Below the pieces are notes generated by a model, which did not search any database, was not told the DNA's origin, and worked only from the letters and a program-made list of their open reading frames with translations. Of a DNA stretch of 28,346 bases, positions 6,748 to 28,346 are shown piece after piece. The position numbers and the translations under genes were made by a program. Position 1 is the stretch's first letter. Each line of letters opens with the position of its first letter. Source of the DNA: a virus; the IMG/VR virus record IMGVR_UViG_3300031576_000243, positions 1 to 28,346 of that record; one strand, 5' to 3'.

Positions 6748-6884
6748 TGGCGACGCTCTACGACGGCCCGGTCACCTCGCTTGCGGCCGTGAACTCGGCC
6801 GGGGCGGGCTTTCCTGACGGCGTTCGCTGGTACTGGCTCACCGACCATAACGGCGACGATCGTGAGGGGGTGACCCGTGGCTGA
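6747..6884 (+). CDS. 45-aa hypothetical in the decoration cassette
   Basis: An ATG at 6747 overlaps the previous stop (TGATG). The frame runs 45 codons (starts MATLYDGPVTSLAAVNSAG) and ends eight bases inside the next gene. There is no RBS of its own, so translation would be coupled. Its final codons contain the GTGAGGGGGTG site (6862-6872) used by the 955-aa gene at 6877. It fills an otherwise empty 130-base gap and has codon use like its neighbours, which supports it being real. No function can be given. Confidence 0.55.
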   Translation: MATLYDGPVTSLAAVNSAGAGFPDGVRWYWLTDHNGDDREGVTRG

Positions 6885-9744
6885 TCAAACAACGGTCGGC
6901 AATACCACTGGCCAGCCGAATGACTACATCGTGTCCAGCGATGATGCTGGGGCGAGTGGTCAGGTTCAGCGCGTCAAGCTCGCCCAGTCCGCCGATGGTT
7001 CGGCTGCCCATGTAACCGCCGACGCGGATGGCCTACTGGTCAACCTGGGCGTAAACAATGACGTGACCATCACCGGTTCCGTCACGGTGGCGGACGGCGG
7101 TGGATCGATCACGGTAGACAACGCCACCCTGTCAGTGGTCGGTGGGGGCGTTGAGGCCACTGCGCTCCGGGTCACCATCGCCAACGACTCCACGGGCGTT
7201 CTCTCGGTAGACGACAACGGCGCGTCTCTCACGGTGGACAACGCCACTATCTCTGTGGTGGGCGGTGGTACGGAAGCAACCGCCCAGCGCGTGACCATCG
7301 CCAATGATTCCACCGGTGTCCTTTCGGTAGATGACAACGGTGGATCGCTCACGGTTGATGGAACCGTAGCCATCTCGGGGACGGTCACCGTTGACTCCGA
7401 GCTCGCGGCTGCTGCTGCGCTCACAGACAACTTCGCCAACCCGACCACGGCGCCCGTGGGCGCGTTCGCCATGGTCTGGGACGGGGCTACATGGGACCGG
7501 CTGCCGGGGAACTCGGTCGATGGCGCGCTGGTCAACCTCGGGGCCAACAACGATGTCGTCGTCTCTGGCTCCGTCTCGATCACGGGCGGGGTCGCGGTCA
7601 CCCAAGGTACAGCCTCGAACCTGAACGCCGAAGTCCAGGGCGACGCGGCCCATGATGCTCCGGTGACCGGGAACCCCGTTCTGATGGGGGGTCGGGCGCA
7701 GGCCACCGCGCCGACCGATGTATCGCTCGACGGCGACGCGGTGAACGCCTGGGTCCTGCGTAACGGAGCTCAGGCCACGGCCCTTACTGCCGCAGGTGCA
7801 CTTATCGGCGGCGATGCGGCCAACGGGCTCGACGTCGACGTGACCCGGCTCCCGGCCCTGGTCGCTGGCTCGGCCAACATCGGTGACGTAGATGTACTCA
7901 CGGTCCCTGCCCCGCTCTCCACGACAGGGGGCGGTACAGAAGCGACAGCACTTCGCGTCACGGTCGCCAACGATTCCACTGGGCTGGTCTCGGTCGACGA
8001 CAACGGCGGGAGCTTGACGGTCGATGCTCCGGTCGGCACGCCCGCGAACGTCCAGGTGGGTGACGGCACCAGGACCGCCACCGTTCGAGACACTGGTACC
8101 TCCGACTCGTTGAACGTTGCGATCGTGGACGCAGCCGGCGCACAGATCACGTCTTTCGGCGGGGGCACGCAGTACACCGAGGATGCGGTTGCCGCCACGG
8201 ATCCGGTTGGTACGCAGCCCGTCATGACCCGCCGCGACGCCCCCACGGCTCTCGTCTCGGCCAACCTCGATGTTGTATCGCAGCAAGCCACGAACTTCGG
8301 TGCCGCATACGTTCAGGTGGTCTCGAGCGGCGGCGCGCTCATCGACTCGTTCGGCGGTTCGGGCGGCACTGCTCAAGCCGATGAATCGGCGTTCACCGAA
8401 GGCACCACGAACATGACGCCGATCGGCGGCGTTCTGAACGACACGATCACCTCTGATCCTACCGAGGATCAGGCGGCAGCCGTCCGCATCACGGCGAAGC
8501 GCGGTCTGCACGCCAACCTCCGCAAGGTCGATGGCACGGAGATCGGGTCGGGGGCCGGTACCGAGGCCAATGCCCTTCGAGTGACGCTGGCGACGGACTC
8601 TACGGGCCTCGTCTCGGTTGACGACAACGGCGGTTCCCTCACGGTCGATGGCTCGGTCTCGATCACCGGAACCGTCGACACGGAACTTCCCGCAGCGGCG
8701 GCGCTCGCGGATGGTGTCGCCAACCCGACCGTCCCGGGGGTGGGGGCGTCTCTCATCGGCTTCGACGGAGTGACGTGGGACAGACTGAGGACGACGGAAG
8801 CGTTCGCAGGAACTGGCGACACTGTTCCGATCGTTGGTGCTCTTGCCGCTGGCATCGGGCCGGGCTTCGACGTCAGGGACAATCCGGCGAACCTCGGTAC
8901 GGCGGTGAACTCCGCCAGCGTCTTCGACACGAACGGTGCCAACCTTGTAACGGTGGGCATCAACACCACCACCACAGGAACGTTCACCTTCGAGGGCACG
9001 GCGGACAACACGAACTGGATTCTGGTCGCTACGTGGGAGATCACGGCGGCGGCGCAGTCCAACGCTATCGTCACATCAGCCCAGACACCGACGGCAGGGG
9101 GTGTTTTCCAGATGAACGCCGCCGGGTTCCGTCAGGTCCGACTGCGAACCGTGTCCACTCTCGGGGCGACGATGGCTCACTTCTTCACCGCGAGCCTTGC
9201 GCTACCCGTTCAGCATGAGGTGCATGGGGCCATCCAGATCGATCAGCCCCTAACAGCCTTTCCTATCTACGTTGGTGGTCGGGCTTCGACTGCTATCCCG
9301 CCTGCCGTCAGCGCAGACGGCGACGGACAGTGGATATGGATGAATCGAAGCGGAGCCATCATCCCGGCGATGGCTCCGCACGTCGGAATGAACTCCGATC
9401 CATGGAACCTCGTTCACGAGGCGGCTCAGTACACCTCTACGCAGACTTCTACGGTCCTAGTGACGGGTGGCGCAGGGGATAAGATCGTCGTGACGAAAGT
9501 TCAGATCCAGGCGGGCGGTACCGTGGCGGGTACCCTCCAGCTCTATTTTGGGACGGGAGCGTTCGCGCGCGGCACCAACCGCGCCATCTTCGACGGGGAG
9601 TTCGCGCCCTCGGCCACACTGAAGCCGGGCGTCGTGATGGACGGGCCGTTCATCGCCGGCACGAACGGCGACGACGTGATGGTGACCACGTCGACCGCGA
9701 TCAACCCATTGACAATCAATCTCTGGTACTACGTGGTGACGTAA
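6877..9744 (+). CDS. Large repetitive beta-rich virion (fibre/decoration) protein
   Basis: The largest gene in the window, 955 aa. It contains no Cys in the parts read and is rich in Ala, Thr, Val, Asp and Gly. It is built from repeated modules. One is LSVDDNGGSLTVD preceded by ALRVTIANDSTG, with copies at about residues 87-117, 127-157, 352-386 and 560-592. Another contains LAAAAALTDNFANPTTAPVG / LPAAAALADGVANPTVPGVG and ends in W-D-R-L (near 180-210 and 605-635). The C-terminal 160 residues are non-repetitive and beta-rich and may be a head or receptor-facing domain. Such sequences are usual in phage fibre or surface proteins. Its place in the head module makes a head fibre plausible. Start GTG has a strong upstream AGGGGGTG. 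Confidence 0.75.
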   Translation: MADQTTVGNTTGQPNDYIVSSDDAGASGQVQRVKLAQSADGSAAHVTADADGLLVNLGVNNDVTITGSVTVADGGGSITVDNATLSVVGGGVEATALRVTIANDSTGVLSVDDNGASLTVDNATISVVGGGTEATAQRVTIANDSTGVLSVDDNGGSLTVDGTVAISGTVTVDSELAAAAALTDNFANPTTAPVGAFAMVWDGATWDRLPGNSVDGALVNLGANNDVVVSGSVSITGGVAVTQGTASNLNAEVQGDAAHDAPVTGNPVLMGGRAQATAPTDVSLDGDAVNAWVLRNGAQATALTAAGALIGGDAANGLDVDVTRLPALVAGSANIGDVDVLTVPAPLSTTGGGTEATALRVTVANDSTGLVSVDDNGGSLTVDAPVGTPANVQVGDGTRTATVRDTGTSDSLNVAIVDAAGAQITSFGGGTQYTEDAVAATDPVGTQPVMTRRDAPTALVSANLDVVSQQATNFGAAYVQVVSSGGALIDSFGGSGGTAQADESAFTEGTTNMTPIGGVLNDTITSDPTEDQAAAVRITAKRGLHANLRKVDGTEIGSGAGTEANALRVTLATDSTGLVSVDDNGGSLTVDGSVSITGTVDTELPAAAALADGVANPTVPGVGASLIGFDGVTWDRLRTTEAFAGTGDTVPIVGALAAGIGPGFDVRDNPANLGTAVNSASVFDTNGANLVTVGINTTTTGTFTFEGTADNTNWILVATWEITAAAQSNAIVTSAQTPTAGGVFQMNAAGFRQVRLRTVSTLGATMAHFFTASLALPVQHEVHGAIQIDQPLTAFPIYVGGRASTAIPPAVSADGDGQWIWMNRSGAIIPAMAPHVGMNSDPWNLVHEAAQYTSTQTSTVLVTGGAGDKIVVTKVQIQAGGTVAGTLQLYFGTGAFARGTNRAIFDGEFAPSATLKPGVVMDGPFIAGTNGDDVMVTTSTAINPLTINLWYYVVT
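7141..7362 (+). repeat. 120-bp tandem coding repeat, with dispersed copies
   Basis: Two adjacent copies (7141-7260 and 7261-about 7362) encode the module ending in DDNG-SLTVD. Related copies start at about 7929 and 8551. The DNA has diverged at third positions while the protein is kept, so the duplications are old and selected at protein level. Confidence 0.8.
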
Positions 9745-20436: not shown

Positions 20437-20985
20437 ATGGCAGCTGGAGTTTCCATTCGACATTGGACCGGCGCCGCCGGTTCTCCGACGAAGACCGATG
20501 TAACCTCGGCTACCACGGTCGCGGTGGCCGACAACGCTCACTACGGCTCGGGGACCATCAACCCGGTGACGATCCCGTCGGCGGGGACGAACTATTCGTT
20601 CTGGGTGCCCTACCGGCTGTTCGTCGATAGCACGCCGAACTCATCCATCGGAACCATCCGCTTTCACACCGACGGAACGAACTCTTCACCGACCGGCGTA
20701 ACGTGGAAGGGGAACACAGCCACGTCCTACATCCAGCCGACGGGCACCGTGGGTACGACTGGCATCATCCTGAATACGACGAACTACTCGACGCTCGCGG
20801 GCGCCACGGTGGACATCTTCACCTGGACGAGCGGTTCGCCCAAGACCATCACGGGCTCGCTCTCGGCTCCGTCTACGGGTGACCTGGGGGACCTGCTGGT
20901 GGTTCAGATGGAGGTCGCGTCTACCGTCGTCACGACCGGCGAGACGACCGGCGAAGTCGCGACGTTCGTATGGGACGAAACTTAA
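20437..20985 (+). CDS. Minor virion protein, fibre-associated
   Basis: A 182-aa, Thr/Ser/Gly-rich, all-beta protein with no charged cluster. It starts MAAGVSIRHWTGAAGSPTKT. The content (IGTIRFHTDGTNSSPTGVTW, GDLLVVQMEVASTV) is like small surface or fibre-tip proteins at the end of tail operons in soil and freshwater phages. It has AGGAGA (about 20426-20431) before the ATG. It is the last gene of the structural series; a 183-base region with two hairpins separates it from the secreted fusion gene. Function is inferred from context and composition only. Confidence 0.55.
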   Translation: MAAGVSIRHWTGAAGSPTKTDVTSATTVAVADNAHYGSGTINPVTIPSAGTNYSFWVPYRLFVDSTPNSSIGTIRFHTDGTNSSPTGVTWKGNTATSYIQPTGTVGTTGIILNTTNYSTLAGATVDIFTWTSGSPKTITGSLSAPSTGDLGDLLVVQMEVASTVVTTGETTGEVATFVWDET

Positions 20986-21084: not shown

Positions 21085-21112
21085 GGGGGCGGGGAACCAG
21101 TTCCCCGCCCTC
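21085..21112 (+). terminator. Possible terminator hairpin, no T-run
   Basis: A nearly perfect stem of 13 bp including one G-T wobble (arms 21085-21097 and 21100-21112). The arm core is GGGCGGGGAAC, with a minimal turn. No run of T follows on either strand, so it resembles the T-less terminator hairpins proposed for actinobacteria. An mRNA-stabilising role is also possible. It falls after the final structural gene, where a terminator would be expected. Confidence 0.5.
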
Positions 21113-21168: not shown

Positions 21169-22875
21169 GTGCGGCGGCTCGCCTGGCTCTTACCGTTCCT
21201 GCTCCTTGCGGTGTTCCTCCCGGCATCCCAGGCTGTCATCCAGGGCGAGCATCGGTTTTCCGTCTTCTGCCGCATCTCGCACACCTCGGCCGATGACCCG
21301 ATCGTGTTCCCCGGCCAGCCGGGAGCTGCGCACGAGCATGCGTTCTTCGGTCCCCCGAGTCTGAGCGCGGGGAGCACGTATGGGACGAACACGCACGACA
21401 CGACAACATGCGAGGCTCCCGAGGACACAGCGGGCTACTGGACCCCGACGCTTCGCATCAGTGGGAGCCGGGTCGTTCCCCGAAGCGTCTTCGCCTACTA
21501 CCGTGCTGGCATTGGCGAGGGCCGCATCATCAGGCCGTATCCCCCGGATCTTCGCATCGTCGCAGACCGGTTCGCGTGGCTCTGCCTGGATTCCCAGACG
21601 TTCGCTAGCCCGCCCAACTGCGACGGCTCGCCCGGACACTCCAATCCTGGAGCGCAGGGCGCGGGCCTGCGTGTCACGTTCCCGCAATGTTGGGACGGCT
21701 ACCGCATCGACTCCCCCGACCATCGCTCCCACATGGCCTACCCGGTCGCCGGGGCCTGTCCCCCGTCGCATCCCGTCGTCGTCCCCCGGCTAGCTCAGAA
21801 CTTCCGCTACGGCATCCGAAACCTCACCGGGGCACAGATGGCCCCGAGCCCGGATGGTTCCGTGGCTGGTCCTCACGCCGACTTCTGGAACACCTGGGAC
21901 CAACGGGCGCTGGAGATCCTGGTGGCGTCGTGCATGGGTGCAAGCAAGTCGCAGGGTGACGCCTTCTGTGCTCGTGTGCAAACGGTCCCCATCCCCGGCC
22001 CCTCGCCATCGCCCTCTCCGAGCCCAAGCCCAAGCCCGTCACCTTCCCCGTCACCCTCACCCAGTCCTTCCCCATCGCCCAGTCCTTCCCCATCCCCCAG
22101 TCCGTCGCCGACTCCGGGACCGGGCTTGCACGTGGCCGGCGCGGGCGACCTCTGCGGCAACTGCGGACCAACGTCCGATCGGGTCATCGCGCTGGGGCCG
22201 GACCTCGTACTGACGTTCGGCGACAACCAGTACCCCTCGGGGACGCTCGCGACGTTCCTTTCGAACTACGACCCCCGCTGGGGCCGGTTCAAGACCATCA
22301 CCCGGCCGAGCGCGGGCAACCACGACTGGCAGACCGCCAACGCTCAGGGCTACCGTGACTACTTCGGATTCCCCACTGGGCCGCTCTGGTACACCTACGA
22401 GCGCGATGGGTGGACGTTCATCGCGATGGACACCCACCAGACCGGCACGAAGCCCGCGCAGGTTCCATTCGTCGCCCAGGCTGTTGCCGGGGCGCCTACG
22501 TGTGAGATCGCCTACGGCCACCACCCGCGCTGGTCATCCGGATCGAATCACGGCTCGGACCCATCCCAACAGGCGCTCTGGCAGACGCTCGTCGACGGCA
22601 GGGCCGATATCGTCATTTACGGCCACGACCATGAGTACGAGCGGTTCGGAACCCTGAACCGCAACGGCCAGCCCGATCCGAACGGTACTCGCGAGTTCGT
22701 CGTCGGAACCGGAGGAGCGGGCCTGTATGGGTTCGGCACTCCGCTGCCGGGGTCGGAGCGCCGCATCCTCGCTCACGGGGTCATCTCGCTCCGGCTCGGG
22801 GATGGGGCCTACACCTGGCAGTTCGTGAACACGGCCGGCCAGGTGCTCGACTCGGGAGCGGGAACATGTCGATGA
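21169..22875 (+). CDS. Secreted DUF1996 - Pro-Ser linker - metallophosphoesterase fusion
   Basis: A 568-aa three-part protein. Residues 1-22 form a Sec signal peptide (RR, hydrophobic core, ASQA/V). Residues about 27-270 match DUF1996: SHTSADDPIVFPG, HEHAFFG, GYWTPTL, FPQCWDGYRIDSPDHRSHMA (171-190), CPPSHPVVVP and HADFWNTWD. Residues 278-318 are a (Pro-Ser)n linker ending PTPGPG. Residues 320-568 form a calcineurin-like phosphoesterase. Its metal-site motifs are AGAGDLC (D327), TFGDNQYP (D352), GNHDW (N384, H385), YGHHPRW (H451) and YGHDHEYER (H486, H488). All parts look intact. DUF1996 has no established activity. This may be a secreted or virion-borne enzyme acting on host surface phosphate esters, or cargo changing the host exterior. 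Its place between tail fibre and endolysin is striking. Confidence 0.85.
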   Translation: MRRLAWLLPFLLLAVFLPASQAVIQGEHRFSVFCRISHTSADDPIVFPGQPGAAHEHAFFGPPSLSAGSTYGTNTHDTTTCEAPEDTAGYWTPTLRISGSRVVPRSVFAYYRAGIGEGRIIRPYPPDLRIVADRFAWLCLDSQTFASPPNCDGSPGHSNPGAQGAGLRVTFPQCWDGYRIDSPDHRSHMAYPVAGACPPSHPVVVPRLAQNFRYGIRNLTGAQMAPSPDGSVAGPHADFWNTWDQRALEILVASCMGASKSQGDAFCARVQTVPIPGPSPSPSPSPSPSPSPSPSPSPSPSPSPSPSPSPSPSPTPGPGLHVAGAGDLCGNCGPTSDRVIALGPDLVLTFGDNQYPSGTLATFLSNYDPRWGRFKTITRPSAGNHDWQTANAQGYRDYFGFPTGPLWYTYERDGWTFIAMDTHQTGTKPAQVPFVAQAVAGAPTCEIAYGHHPRWSSGSNHGSDPSQQALWQTLVDGRADIVIYGHDHEYERFGTLNRNGQPDPNGTREFVVGTGGAGLYGFGTPLPGSERRILAHGVISLRLGDGAYTWQFVNTAGQVLDSGAGTCR

Positions 22876-22988
22876 TCTGCTCCGAGTGCGGAGCACTAGT
22901 GGCTGTCAGCGCTGAGAAGTATTGCGGTGGCTTGGATGAGGAGCGAACCGTAGCGTTCCTTGCGTCCGAAACCATCCTGACCTCGTGA
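22866..22988 (+). CDS. 40-aa Cys-containing mini-protein
   Basis: An ATG at 22866 has GGGAG at 22854-22858, seven bases upstream. A second in-frame ATG at 22872 overlaps the previous stop (ATGA) and may be the true start. The product (starts MSMICSECGALVAVSAEK) has C5, C8 and C20, a half zinc-ribbon pattern. It ends in a helical stretch, and its stop overlaps the endolysin start (GTGA). Coupling on both sides supports it as a real gene. Function is unknown. Confidence 0.55.
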   Translation: MSMICSECGALVAVSAEKYCGGLDEERTVAFLASETILTS

Positions 22989-23683
22989 TATACAAGCTGC
23001 GGTCGGCGGGATGGTTCGCCGAGGTCGGCGGGATCCCCGTAACGAAGATGAGGCTCCCCGCCGGCTTCTACGGCGGCTGGCCCGAGGCTCCGATAGGGGC
23101 CATGTGGCATTTCACCGCGGGCTGTGGCGGCGGAGCCGAGGTCTTCGGAGTGCTCAAGGCCCGCGGTATCTCGGCGCACTTCCTGGTCGATCGGCAAGGG
23201 CGCATCTTCCAGTACGTGTCGCTGCTCGACAGAGCGGCCCACGCCTTCGACGCGAACCATCGCTACTACGGGGTGGAGCACGCCGCCACCGTCGCCAATG
23301 GCCCCTGCCCGCTCACCGACGCGCAGCTCGCCGCCTCCGCGAAGCTGATGGCCGGGCTCGTGGGCTTCATCAAGGCTCACTGGGGGACCACGGTACCGAT
23401 ACGCCACGTCGAGGGCTGCCGCTTCGCCGCAGGTTTCAAGCAGCACAACGACGGACTCGGGAGCCCCGAGTGGCCGTGCCCGTGGAACCCGAACCGACAC
23501 GTGGACGGGCTCTATCGGTGGTCGTGGACGAAGTACCTGAAGGCCATTACCGACGCAGCTACTCCCACGACGTTCGTGTTTCAGGGCCGCCGGTATCGGA
23601 AGCTGCGGAACCTGTTGCGGAGGCTCAGGCGTCGGCTCCGCAGAGCGCGAGGCGAGCTCCACGTGGAAGTGAGCTCGCGGTGA
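22985..23683 (+). CDS. Endolysin, N-acetylmuramoyl-L-alanine amidase (Amidase_2)
   Basis: It cuts the bond between N-acetylmuramic acid and L-alanine in peptidoglycan to release progeny. The 232-aa protein has an Amidase_2 domain over residues about 20-175. Zinc-ligand and active-site elements visible are MWHFTAG (H42), ISAHFLVDRQGRIFQYV (62-78), YYGVEHA (E98), RHVEGC and FKQHNDGLGSPEWPCPW (H154, C165). No signal peptide or SAR segment is present, so a holin is needed for access. The C-terminus has no known cell-wall-binding domain but a very basic stretch (about 202-222, many Arg), which may bind the anionic wall or membrane. The GTG is coupled to the preceding mini-gene by GTGA. Confidence 0.92.
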   Translation: MIYKLRSAGWFAEVGGIPVTKMRLPAGFYGGWPEAPIGAMWHFTAGCGGGAEVFGVLKARGISAHFLVDRQGRIFQYVSLLDRAAHAFDANHRYYGVEHAATVANGPCPLTDAQLAASAKLMAGLVGFIKAHWGTTVPIRHVEGCRFAAGFKQHNDGLGSPEWPCPWNPNRHVDGLYRWSWTKYLKAITDAATPTTFVFQGRRYRKLRNLLRRLRRRLRRARGELHVEVSSR

Positions 23684-23844
23684 AGGTTCGCTACGGCTCC
23701 GGCACCGATCAGTGGGTGGAGATGGACCCCTCGGACTATCGTAGGTATCTGGCCGGTGTCGATGAGCAAGCATCCCGCGACGCCGCAGCCGACATGGGTG
23801 AGTACCTGGAGTTCGAGCGCATCGTGGAGGTATCCAATGTCTAA
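23680..23844 (+). CDS. 54-aa hypothetical after the endolysin
   Basis: GTG 23680 overlaps the endolysin stop (GTGA), with GGAAGTGAG upstream (about 23665-23673). The product is acidic (starts MKVRYGSGTDQWVEMDPSDY) with one beta hairpin and a helix (RRYLAGVDEQASRDAAADMG). No family is recognised. Its end overlaps the next gene by eight bases. The frame is open much further upstream, but that part is only the shadow of the endolysin. Confidence 0.55.
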   Translation: MKVRYGSGTDQWVEMDPSDYRRYLAGVDEQASRDAAADMGEYLEFERIVEVSNV

Positions 23845-23944
23845 GAAGTGCTCGTCTTGTGGTTACTGCCCGACCTGTGGTCGTGTCAACGCTCACTTGC
23901 TGCCCCAGGATCCGCCCCACGTGACTTACGGGCGGCGAGGGTGA
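23837..23944 (+). CDS. 35-aa CxxCxxCxxC mini-protein
   Basis: An ATG at 23837 has GGAGG seven bases upstream. The product starts MSKKCSSCGYCPTCGRVNAH. Four Cys at positions 5, 8, 11 and 14 with a spacing of three form one tight cluster, most simply a zinc-binding knot. An iron-sulfur site is less likely. Very similar mini-proteins (a CGYCPxCGR core) recur in actinophage genomes, with no known function. The stop overlaps the following GTG (GTGA). Confidence 0.65.
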   Translation: MSKKCSSCGYCPTCGRVNAHLLPQDPPHVTYGRRG

Positions 23945-24117
23945 ATGGGTTCGGGCGGGTTCGCCTGGCCATGGCCTGGGTCATCCTGGGCGTCTGGGTG
24001 GGATCCTTAGTGCTTGAGGCCGTGCTACCGAGCTACGACGCGCCGACCTCTATCCACGTCCTGATGATGCTGGTGGCCGGGGCGATGTTCGGGCCAAAGA
24101 TCGGGGGGAGACACTGA
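23941..24117 (+). CDS. Small membrane protein, holin candidate 1
   Basis: 58 aa with two hydrophobic segments (residues about 8-27, RLAMAWVILGVWVGSLVLEA, and about 37-53, HVLMMLVAGAMFGPKIG). The short turn between them includes LPSYDAP. Size and topology suit a holin or a small partner of one. GGCGAGG precedes GTG 23941, which overlaps the previous stop. It is coupled to the next membrane protein by TGATG, so the two could form a holin/antiholin-like pair. That pairing is inference. Confidence 0.55.
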   Translation: MNGFGRVRLAMAWVILGVWVGSLVLEAVLPSYDAPTSIHVLMMLVAGAMFGPKIGGRH

Positions 24118-24401
24118 TGCTCGCCGTGGGCCTGCTCCGCGATTCCATCCTGGGACTCTCGGCTTTCAGCGCGGGCGTCGCCTTGTGGCTCACGTACACC
24201 AGCGTCCGGACCCGCGTCCGTTACTGGTGGGCCTACGCACTCGCCGGAACTGGGTTCGCGGTCCTCGTCCTGCTAGTGGCTGAGGCCGTGTTCGGCGCCT
24301 CGTCCATCCCTGTGACGTGGCGCTCCGTCCTGTACGCAGTAGCCCTTACCGCTACGGGTATCGGTATCGGAGGGATAGCGCGAGATCGCGGTGGTCGATG
24401 A
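24117..24401 (+). CDS. Three-TM membrane protein, holin candidate 2
   Basis: 94 aa with three predicted membrane segments: residues about 10-27 (ILGLSAFSAGVALWLTYT), 37-59 (WWAYALAGTGFAVLVLLVAE) and 70-86 (VLYAVALTATGIGIGGI). It has a basic loop (SVRTRVRY) after the first and a basic C-terminus (ARDRGGR). Three-span proteins of this length near the endolysin are commonly class I holins. No residue-level signature proves the call. ATG 24117 overlaps the previous stop, and its stop overlaps the next ATG (ATGA). Confidence 0.5.
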   Translation: MLAVGLLRDSILGLSAFSAGVALWLTYTSVRTRVRYWWAYALAGTGFAVLVLLVAEAVFGASSIPVTWRSVLYAVALTATGIGIGGIARDRGGR

Positions 24402-25738: not shown

Positions 25739-25987
25739 GTGGCCGAGGACACCAAGAAACCGCCCAAACGCTCGCTGGTGGAGTTCCAGCGGGACAAGCG
25801 ACGCGCCGCGTGCGTCGTCTGCTCGTTGCCGAGCGACCTGTACGAACAGCTCAAGCTTGCGCGGGCTCGGAAAATCTCTCAGGTGGAGGCTATCGACTGG
25901 CTGAAAGAGGAAGAGGGCATCACCATCACCCGTGCCGACTTCTCCACCCACAATTCCGCACACCACGACACCTGGGATGAGCCCTGA
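25739..25987 (+). CDS. Small helix-turn-helix-like protein
   Basis: An 82-aa protein with a strong AGGAGG (25728-25733) before GTG 25739. A basic N-terminus (KRSLVEFQRDKRRAA) is followed by a segment that reads like a compact helical DNA-binding domain: CSLPSDLYEQLKLARARKIS, VEAIDWLKEEEGITITRADF, then a conserved-looking STHNSAHH. Related short proteins (a helix, then a W-L-x-E-G-x-x-I-x-x-A-D-F turn, then H) occur just before phosphoesterase genes in actinophages. DNA binding or a regulatory role is inferred. The stop overlaps the next ATG (TGATG), so it is co-translated with the phosphoesterase. Confidence 0.6.
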   Translation: MAEDTKKPPKRSLVEFQRDKRRAACVVCSLPSDLYEQLKLARARKISQVEAIDWLKEEEGITITRADFSTHNSAHHDTWDEP

Positions 25988-27096
25988 TGGCCGAGAAGAA
26001 GAAGCTCGGGCTGGAGGAGTTCGTTGCAGAACGTGACGAGGCGAGGTTCGCGGAGAACCAGGAGATCGCCCGGACGCTCCGTGCGGCGCGGGCCGACGCA
26101 GCCGAGTCCCGCTCCCGTCTCGCGGAGCTGGAATCGCGGCTCAAGCTATTCGAGGGACTCGAGGAAGCCCAGCTCACACCCCCCGCGTGGCTCACCCCCG
26201 AGAAGGCATCGAAGCAGATCCATGTGGCTACCCCGGCGTTCGTCTACACCGACGCCCATACGGGGGAGACGGTCGACCCCGGTGCCACGGACGGCCTGAA
26301 CGCCTACAACCGGGAGATATCGGCGCAGCGCCATCGCCGGTTCTTCGAAAAGGCGATCGTCACGGCTCGGGATTACCTGTCGGGCGTTAGCTACGACGGC
26401 GCGGTGGTGTTTTCAACTGGGGACGACGTGTCGGGGCTCATCCACGAGGAGCTGCAGCGGACGAACGCCGAGACCGTCATGGAGTCGGTGCTCTCAGAGG
26501 CCGAGCACCAGGAAGCTGGGTTCCGCATGCTCGCTGAGGCTTTCGGGCACCTCCATGTCGTGAAGGTGCCGGGGAACCACGGACGCTATAAGACAGGGCG
26601 CCCAGAGCACAAGAGCTACAACAAGAACAACTTCGACTGGCTCATCGGTCGCCTGGTGGCCAAGGAACTCCGCGCCGATGACCGGATCACGTTCACCATC
26701 GCCGACGCACCGAACGCCCGAGCTCGCGTCTACGACACGCGATTCCTCGTCACCCACGGGTTTGAGTTCAAGGGCGGAACTGGCATCTCGGGCGCCCTGG
26801 CGCCGCTGATGCTCGGTACTCACCGCAAGACCCGGCGCGAGGCGATGGCTGGTAAGCTGACGGGCGAGCGCCGGGACTACGACTGCATGGTGATGGGCCA
26901 CCTGCATCAGCGCATCTCGCTTCCGGCGAGGGGTGTGCTCGTCGGAGGGTGCCTGAAGGGCTACGACGAGTTCGCTTACGACTACAACTTCGAGCCGGAC
27001 GAACCCACGCAAGAGGCGTTCCTCATCACACCCGAACGAGGGATCACGTTCAACTGGCCGATCCACGTCATGGACCGCAAGGCCGAGGGCTGGTAA
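25987..27096 (+). CDS. Intracellular calcineurin-like metallophosphoesterase
   Basis: A 369-aa two-metal phosphoesterase without a signal peptide. A charged coiled-coil N-terminus (about 10-62) precedes the catalytic domain. Motifs in order are YTDAHTG (D89, H91), STGDDVSG (D146), PGNHGRY (N197, H198), THGFEFKG (H257) and VMGHLHQ (H305, H307), a complete set of metal and catalytic positions. The family includes SbcD/Mre11-type nucleases and phage nucleic-acid-end or nucleotide phosphatases. The substrate cannot be told. The exact start ATG overlaps the preceding HTH-like gene. It is unrelated in sequence to the secreted phosphoesterase at 21169 apart from the shared fold, so the phage has two phosphoesterases in different compartments. 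Confidence 0.88.
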   Translation: MAEKKKLGLEEFVAERDEARFAENQEIARTLRAARADAAESRSRLAELESRLKLFEGLEEAQLTPPAWLTPEKASKQIHVATPAFVYTDAHTGETVDPGATDGLNAYNREISAQRHRRFFEKAIVTARDYLSGVSYDGAVVFSTGDDVSGLIHEELQRTNAETVMESVLSEAEHQEAGFRMLAEAFGHLHVVKVPGNHGRYKTGRPEHKSYNKNNFDWLIGRLVAKELRADDRITFTIADAPNARARVYDTRFLVTHGFEFKGGTGISGALAPLMLGTHRKTRREAMAGKLTGERRDYDCMVMGHLHQRISLPARGVLVGGCLKGYDEFAYDYNFEPDEPTQEAFLITPERGITFNWPIHVMDRKAEGW

Positions 27097-27731: not shown

Positions 27732-28346
27732 GCACTCGCCCACTTCTCGGGGTGCTGGTGGAGGCCGCCGGACTCCCACTCAAGCCACCGAAGCGTGGAC
27801 ACCGATGGGGCCTGAAGGCCGTCGATCGCGACTTTGAGTCGTCTCGGGGGTTCGTGTGGCCATTCCCCGGTGGCAGGGCGACTAGCCCCAAGCGACCCAC
27901 GCCGGGAGGCCCCTGCCCGGCGTGGGAGGGGGATGGGCTCTGCGTCGGCGTGACGGCTTGGGGGCTGGCGCAGGGAGGCCACGGGCTCACGACCGTGCTC
28001 ATCGTGTCCTATACCAAGACCTACGGCGCGGACGCTGACAAGGTGCGGGTTGGCTGGGCTGATGTTCATCACGTCCTCGACGTGCCCAAGATGATCCGAG
28101 GGGCCAATCTCTTCGGGGCCGACCTCTCCGGGGCCAATCTCTTCGGGGCCAATCTCTTCGAGGCCAACCTCTTCGGGGCCAACCTCTCCGGGGTCATCCT
28201 CTCCAGGGCCAATCTCTTCGGGGCCGACCTCTCCGGGGCCAATCTCTTCGGGGCCAATCTCTTCGGGGCCAACCTCTCCGGGGCCAACCTCTCCAGGGCC
28301 AACCTCTTCGGGGCCAACCTCTCCGGGGCCGACCCGCACGGAGCCA
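27728..28346 (+). CDS. Pentapeptide-repeat protein, 3' truncated by window edge
   Basis: GTG 27728 overlaps the previous stop (GTGA). The frame has no stop before the edge, giving at least 206 residues. The N-terminal 124 residues are a separate domain: [41 protein letters not shown] and [20 protein letters not shown]. This kind of domain comes before pentapeptide repeats in other phage and actinobacterial proteins. From residue 125, 16 pentads of A(N/D)L(F/S)G follow. These are expected to fold as a square right-handed beta-helix with Leu inside. Family members include DNA mimics that bind gyrase (MfpA, Qnr); whether this one does is unknown. Minus-strand frames here that read as GPEEVG repeats are only the mirror of these repeats. 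Confidence 0.85.
28100..28346 (+). repeat. 15-bp tandem repeat encoding pentapeptides
   Basis: About 16 copies of a 15-bp unit of the type GGGGCCAATCTCTTC. Many copies are identical at DNA level, not only at protein level, with a few variants ([20 protein letters not shown]). Such high DNA identity suggests recent expansion by slippage and also a risk of assembly collapse here. Confidence 0.9.

Follow-up and report, generated by a model that had tools for sequence, protein, structure and literature searches.

The virus record analysed here encodes a protein of 568 amino acids, predicted to be exported, in which a domain of family DUF1996 is joined to a metallophosphoesterase that is purple-acid-phosphatase-like by profile, predicted fold and motif. 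Both halves are members of known families, and what appears to be new is the join, which was found nowhere else in the genomes and contigs searched. The protein would sit among the secreted modular phosphatases and among the accessory genes of phage lysis units, and its likeliest job, which can be put forward only tentatively, is to aid in dismantling the host envelope around lysis and release. The features discussed below are collected in Table 1; "the window" refers throughout to the whole stretch of 28,346 bases.

Table 1. Features of the 568-aa gene and its surroundings, in positions of the window.
Feature	Position	Strand	Basis
Strong G+C-rich hairpin, 12-bp stem, without T run	21085-21112	+	z -2.9 for 21050-21125
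Gene for 568-aa predicted exported two-domain protein	21169-22875	+	ORF and Pfam search
Predicted Sec signal peptide, residues 1-22	21169-21234	+	sequence read and hydropathy
DUF1996, residues 43-243	21295-21897	+	Pfam, alignment, AF2 model
Pro-Ser linker, about residues 274-319, roughly 40-45 residues	21988-22125	+	sequence read
Purple-acid-phosphatase-like metallophosphoesterase	22114-22872	+	Pfam, profile, AF2 model, motifs
38-aa CxxC ORF	22872-22988	+	ATG overlaps stop of 568-aa gene (ATGA)
Amidase_2 endolysin	22985-23683	+	Amidase_2 2e-14; GTG overlaps stop of 38-aa ORF
Candidate holins among overlapping small ORFs; hydrophobic segments in two of these (23941-24117 and 24117-24401)	23680-24401	+	hydropathy

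The record holds genes for terminase (TerL), portal, prohead protease, capsid and tape measure, in keeping with its earlier description as a phage genome. Searches with the terminase and portal returned distant matches only; the sole pointers to a host, the kinship of DUF1996 and the relatives of these two proteins, suggest an actinobacterium. Elsewhere in the window, a second phosphoesterase-like protein (25987-27096) carries GNHGR and MGHLH motifs by eye, has no signal peptide and gave no Pfam or NCBIfam match, a repeat-rich protein of 955 residues (6877-9744) lies in the structural region and matches nothing in Pfam or PHROG, and a pentapeptide-repeat gene with 15-bp tandem units (28100-28334) stands at the end of the contig.

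The 568-aa gene is a single uninterrupted frame with a GTG start, in which signal peptide, DUF1996, Pro-Ser linker and metallophosphoesterase follow one another, an order that an earlier note on this DNA had proposed and that reading of the ORF and a Pfam search both confirm. The domain search recommended in that note placed both halves above their cut-offs, DUF1996 (PF09362) with an E value of 4.6e-33 and 115.7 bits against 27 over profile positions 1-237 of 237, and Metallophos (PF00149) at residues 327-490 with an E value of 3.6e-07 and 31.3 bits against 21.5. The first 22 residues look like a typical Sec signal peptide (MRRLAWLLPFLLLAVFLPASQA, next residue V) and form the sole hydrophobic segment of the protein by hydropathy. 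Export is probable from this predicted signal peptide, and the proposal of an exported two-domain protein with an intact two-metal site is thus supported by signal peptide prediction, Pfam and motifs. The two halves were modelled separately; a joint alignment had misplaced DUF1996 onto the enzyme half.

The C-terminal half combines its profile match with the two-metal motifs GD, GDNQY, GNHD, HH and GHDH of calcineurin-like phosphoesterases, which lie at residues 326-328 (GDL), 351-355 (GDNQY), 383-386 (GNHD), 450-453 (GHHP) and 485-488 (GHDH). The description "calcineurin-like" used earlier therefore holds for the profile and the two-metal site, but the enzyme is nearer to purple acid phosphatases than to generic enzymes of that class. 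These phosphatases rank first in a PDB profile search with 42 relatives (wheat 6gja, 1.6e-23), and they are the best folds for the AF2 model of the enzyme half, which has a pLDDT of 95.5 (probability 1.00, TM about 0.83, E 1.2e-14). The Tyr of GDxxY distinguishes purple acid phosphatases from other calcineurin-like enzymes. All seven candidate metal ligands are present, including this invariant Tyr, and the G-D, Y, H and GHDH positions do not vary across the 42 enzyme relatives. Within the five-motif set of purple acid phosphatases (DxG, GDxxY, GNH(D/E), xxxH, GHxH) the Gly of DxG is absent, the site reading DLC. Pfam gave no PhoD match in the protein at E values up to 1. Purple acid phosphatases are further marked by an Fe(III)-M(II) centre, a purple colour and activity at acid pH; for the enzyme half, phosphatase activity is a prediction from fold and motifs.

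The DUF1996 half has conserved residues at D43, H55, H57, H188, H236, D238 and W243, of which the Asp/His set (all but W243) may form a metal or catalytic site. The signature described for fungal members, D-x4-P, HxH, YW and HxD (PMC4738358), is present as D43-P48, H55EH57, Y90W91 and H236AD238. DUF1996 has no known activity, and the AF2 model of this half (pLDDT 84.8, mainly strands), though confident, resembles no solved structure: searches of the PDB by sequence and by fold, and of the viral library BFVD, gave no structural relative. The only functional work found concerns Vlp1-3 of the fungus Beauveria, vacuolar DUF1996 proteins; mutants that lack them are more sensitive to wall, osmotic, oxidative and metal stress (PMC4738358). 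In the absence of a structural relative, it is the domain partners that suggest glycan binding. In bacteria, one DUF1996 carries a fused CBM6 (L173), another DUF1996 protein (L190) ends in an LPFTG-type wall-anchor tail, and an actinobacterial MAG (L174, 613-5364) encodes a protein of 1584 residues that unites a GH81 glucanase and two CBM6 with DUF1996, which is helpful for guessing what the domain does. In a tree the DUF1996 of the window groups with actinobacterial sequences (100/100) and a few phage rows, and the 40 members of the main phage group stand apart.

DUF1996 had been described as mainly fungal and actinobacterial, but it is frequent in viral contigs too. One scan gave 78 viral loci, some of them near-identical, and another about 15 more, of which about 90 were fetched; matches labelled as Salmonella "phage" include chromosomal contigs and were left out. 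In these viral contigs (L009-L085, L195-L221) the domain is usually accompanied by a signal peptide and by an N-terminal extension that varies. DUF1996 was matched in 67 of the 67 viral proteins scanned, with Metallophos added only in that of the window, which itself matches no PHROGs family. The enzyme half, with five viral relatives, is rare in viruses, and bacteria commonly have it as a secreted module. Searches for the same two-domain order, as had been advised, found no other fusion in the viral contigs and GenBank phages searched, at 80 bacterial phosphatase loci (55 of which were followed down to the reading frame), or in about 180 actinobacterial and other genomes, where each domain match covered one half. 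The combination looks unique so far.

What varies is the partner of the enzyme. The nearest viral relative of the enzyme half (L007, 53-54%), its sister in the tree (100/97), has a GH99-like domain in place of DUF1996, the same GH99-like and phosphatase arrangement is seen by eye in another virus contig (L223), and a Lentzea chromosome (L112) has GH99 fused to the same enzyme domain, so that the module upstream of the enzyme appears to have been swapped. Bacterial partners of the enzyme half are CBM96, F5/8C with fn3, and GH99; between them, the DUF1996 and phosphatase modules of secreted bacterial proteins carry CBM6, CBM96, GH81, GH99, F5/8C or PKD. DUF1996 and phosphatase genes adjoin in two actinobacterial genomes (L184, L191), where about 0.03 such pairs would be expected by chance, a rough estimate for a pattern spotted after the fact. 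Two further viral proteins (L168, 7398-8648; L225, 5164-6687) have a C-terminal metallophosphoesterase behind unrelated N-terminal regions. At L007 10731-11591, genes for a secreted CAP-domain protein and an RTX-like protein come after the GH99-phosphatase gene and directly ahead of the capsid gene, making up a small cluster of exported proteins inside the phage head module.

Downstream, ATGA and GTGA overlaps chain the 568-aa gene to the 38-aa ORF, the amidase and the small membrane proteins, the endolysin stop overlapping the start of the next small ORF. Judged from these overlapping start and stop codons, the 568-aa gene is the opening gene of a translationally coupled string, and its linkage to Amidase_2 and to small hydrophobic proteins that are candidate holins is that of a lysis cassette; the small ORFs drew no confident Pfam assignment. 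The gene had been placed between the last tail gene and the endolysin, which understates the link to the endolysin, coupled and not simply near, and overlooks the 38-codon ORF that intervenes. The supposed last tail gene (20437-20985) does follow the tape-measure gene; it has no family match, so the label "tail" rests on that position. The hairpin upstream separates the structural genes from the unit of the 568-aa gene and may end the structural transcript; no consensus terminator or sigma-70 promoter was found before the gene.

The association with lysis genes extends to other phages. For 105 genes lying no more than about two places from phage DUF1996, the families that rank first are those of endolysin, holin and spanin (examples are L009, L017, L038 and L055), and no such family is among the top 25 listed for 98 genes five to ten places off in the same contigs. 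As single-protein families rank below those listed, some loci are related and exceptions exist, this is called an enrichment and not a rule: DUF1996 lies by PhoH in L027 and by a virion gene in L054, and the closest actinophage DUF1996 genes, L059 and L072, are by tail-region or terminase genes. The amidase of the window was found in none of the other DUF1996 virus records searched, and the lysis linkage was therefore judged through PHROG families.

These observations suggest a modular secreted enzyme, probably produced late in infection. The Sec signal peptide would take the protein out of the cell, where the DUF1996 half would anchor it on, or act on, a host-envelope glycan, and the flexible Pro-Ser arm would give reach to the C-terminal half, which may remove phosphates (or cut phosphodiesters) on phosphorylated polymers linked to the wall or surface. 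The place of the gene in the coupled string of the amidase endolysin points to late expression and to envelope dismantling around lysis or release as the likeliest job, while the envelope glycan is suggested by the fusions of DUF1996 to CBM6 and GH81, by the LPFTG-type tail, and by those of the enzyme half to CBM96, F5/8C and GH99. Late expression, substrate and lysis-stage role are each predicted from gene context and domain partners, and the reading as a whole falls a little short of being probable. The envelope-modifying role suggested in the earlier note is in this way plausible on the grounds of predicted export, coupling to lysis genes and glycan-module partners.

An alternative is that the protein is the product of an auxiliary metabolic gene, an exported phosphatase that frees phosphate from organic esters in the surroundings of the infected cell for phage DNA synthesis. 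Phosphate supply would suit a secreted phosphatase just as well, purple acid phosphatases and phytase-type enzymes are classic phosphate scavengers, and the bacterial relatives resemble secreted phosphatases, many with glycan-binding modules; the coupling to the endolysin, however, makes late expression probable, when added phosphate is least useful, and scavenging is rather unlikely. Wall teichoic acids are common receptors for phages of Gram-positive bacteria, and a wall-bound protein that strips phosphate decorations used as receptors might shield the infected cell from superinfection or spare progeny from binding to debris. The anatomy this asks for is identical to that behind the envelope and lysis reading, and a role in superinfection or on teichoic acid was proposed for gp22 of phage P1312 (PMC4569894); we regard it as unlikely here. 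Slightly less likely again is a tail or decoration enzyme that travels with the virion and acts at entry. The 568-aa gene does come after the structural genes, the DUF1996 of L059 starts 34 bp after a tail-region gene and P1312 gp22 is directly behind a tail gene, but the predicted signal peptide would carry the protein out of the cell and not to assembling virions, the strong hairpin stands between the structural genes and the 568-aa gene, and the coupling is to lysis genes, not tail genes.

That the fusion is an assembly chimera, two phage genes brought together through the Pro-Ser linker, is very improbable: it is known from a single contig with no second copy found in viral searches, and high-GC metagenomes commonly contain Pro-Ser linkers, but the linker has no exact internal repeat longer than 17 bp, both halves fit the composition of the contig, and the module before the enzyme is swapped in several independent genomes. 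The linker DNA mixes Pro and Ser codons, the GC3 of the two halves is 0.80 and 0.84, and the tetranucleotide make-up of each is within the spread of same-sized contig pieces, which makes a repeat-driven join unlikely. Frame, linker repeats and composition gave no sign of the frame break or assembly join that the earlier note had named as fatal to the fusion, and such an artefact was rejected as unlikely on the linker repeat and composition tests. The DUF1996 half is preceded by structural genes, coupling ties the enzyme half to a phage amidase gene, and the viral protein closest to that half (L007) is also a Pro/Ser-linked fusion, on a contig with a capsid gene.

If envelope dismantling is indeed the role of the 568-aa protein, the phage would have a lysis module able to dephosphorylate the wall as well, a new type of lysis accessory. 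DUF1996 is a common phage-borne domain, often beside lysis genes and joined in bacteria to glycan-active modules, and this pattern offers a testable role for it in fungi, bacteria and phages, the binding or cleavage of envelope glycan. A broader and bolder proposal, to which we give only a modest chance, is that DUF1996 is a glycan-directed domain common to phages, bacteria and fungi, used by phages at the envelope in lysis and here wired to a phosphatase of the purple acid type as the first wall-dephosphorylating lysis accessory.

Among described phage proteins, the nearest is gp22 of Thermobifida phage P1312, a metallophosphatase with a carbohydrate-binding-like region encoded directly after the tail genes, for which its authors proposed teichoic acid or DNA as target and a role in superinfection (PMC4569894). 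It is a partial precedent, though without DUF1996, and the statement that no such system had been described was too strong. The resemblance lies in an actinophage metallophosphatase with a CBM4_9-like region, encoded just after tail genes; gp22 is, however, a protein of 1096 residues that tests as PhoD class (4e-14) with a weak CBM4_9 match, whereas the window protein has no PhoD match, so that the two would at most work alike and belong to different families. No hydrophobic signal peptide is seen at the start of the gp22 sequence, although its authors predict one (PMC4569894). Gp48 of mycobacteriophage A10ZJ24 is likewise a phage-encoded metallophosphoesterase, with a reported role in evasion of bacterial antiviral immunity and no mention of a signal peptide (PMC12287305). 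The Beauveria Vlp1-3 proteins share domain and signature with the DUF1996 half but are single-domain, vacuolar and without known activity, unlike the predicted exported fusion (PMC4738358).

On the enzyme side, the plant phytase (6gja/6git) and pig uteroferrin (1ute/7ov8) share fold, motif order, ligand Tyr, GNHD, HH and GHDH with the window enzyme, which at about 20% identity is shorter, is without the N-terminal domain of these phosphatases, has DLC for DxG, and is phage-borne and fused to DUF1996. The secreted modular phosphoesterases of Actinomycetota, Gemmatimonadota and Chloroflexota (for example Lentzea L112, L180, L182) share the enzyme domain, with an identity of about 37-48%, and have linkers and often a sugar-binding or glycosidase module, but they are chromosomal, and in place of DUF1996 their N-terminal module is GH99, CBM96, F5/8C, Big or PKD. 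A related design is seen in L007, on a contig with a capsid gene, and in L223, where a GH99-like domain, a Pro/Ser linker and a phosphatase of the window type follow one another; the N-terminal modules differ, and the L007 gene adjoins the capsid gene whereas that of the window adjoins the endolysin unit.
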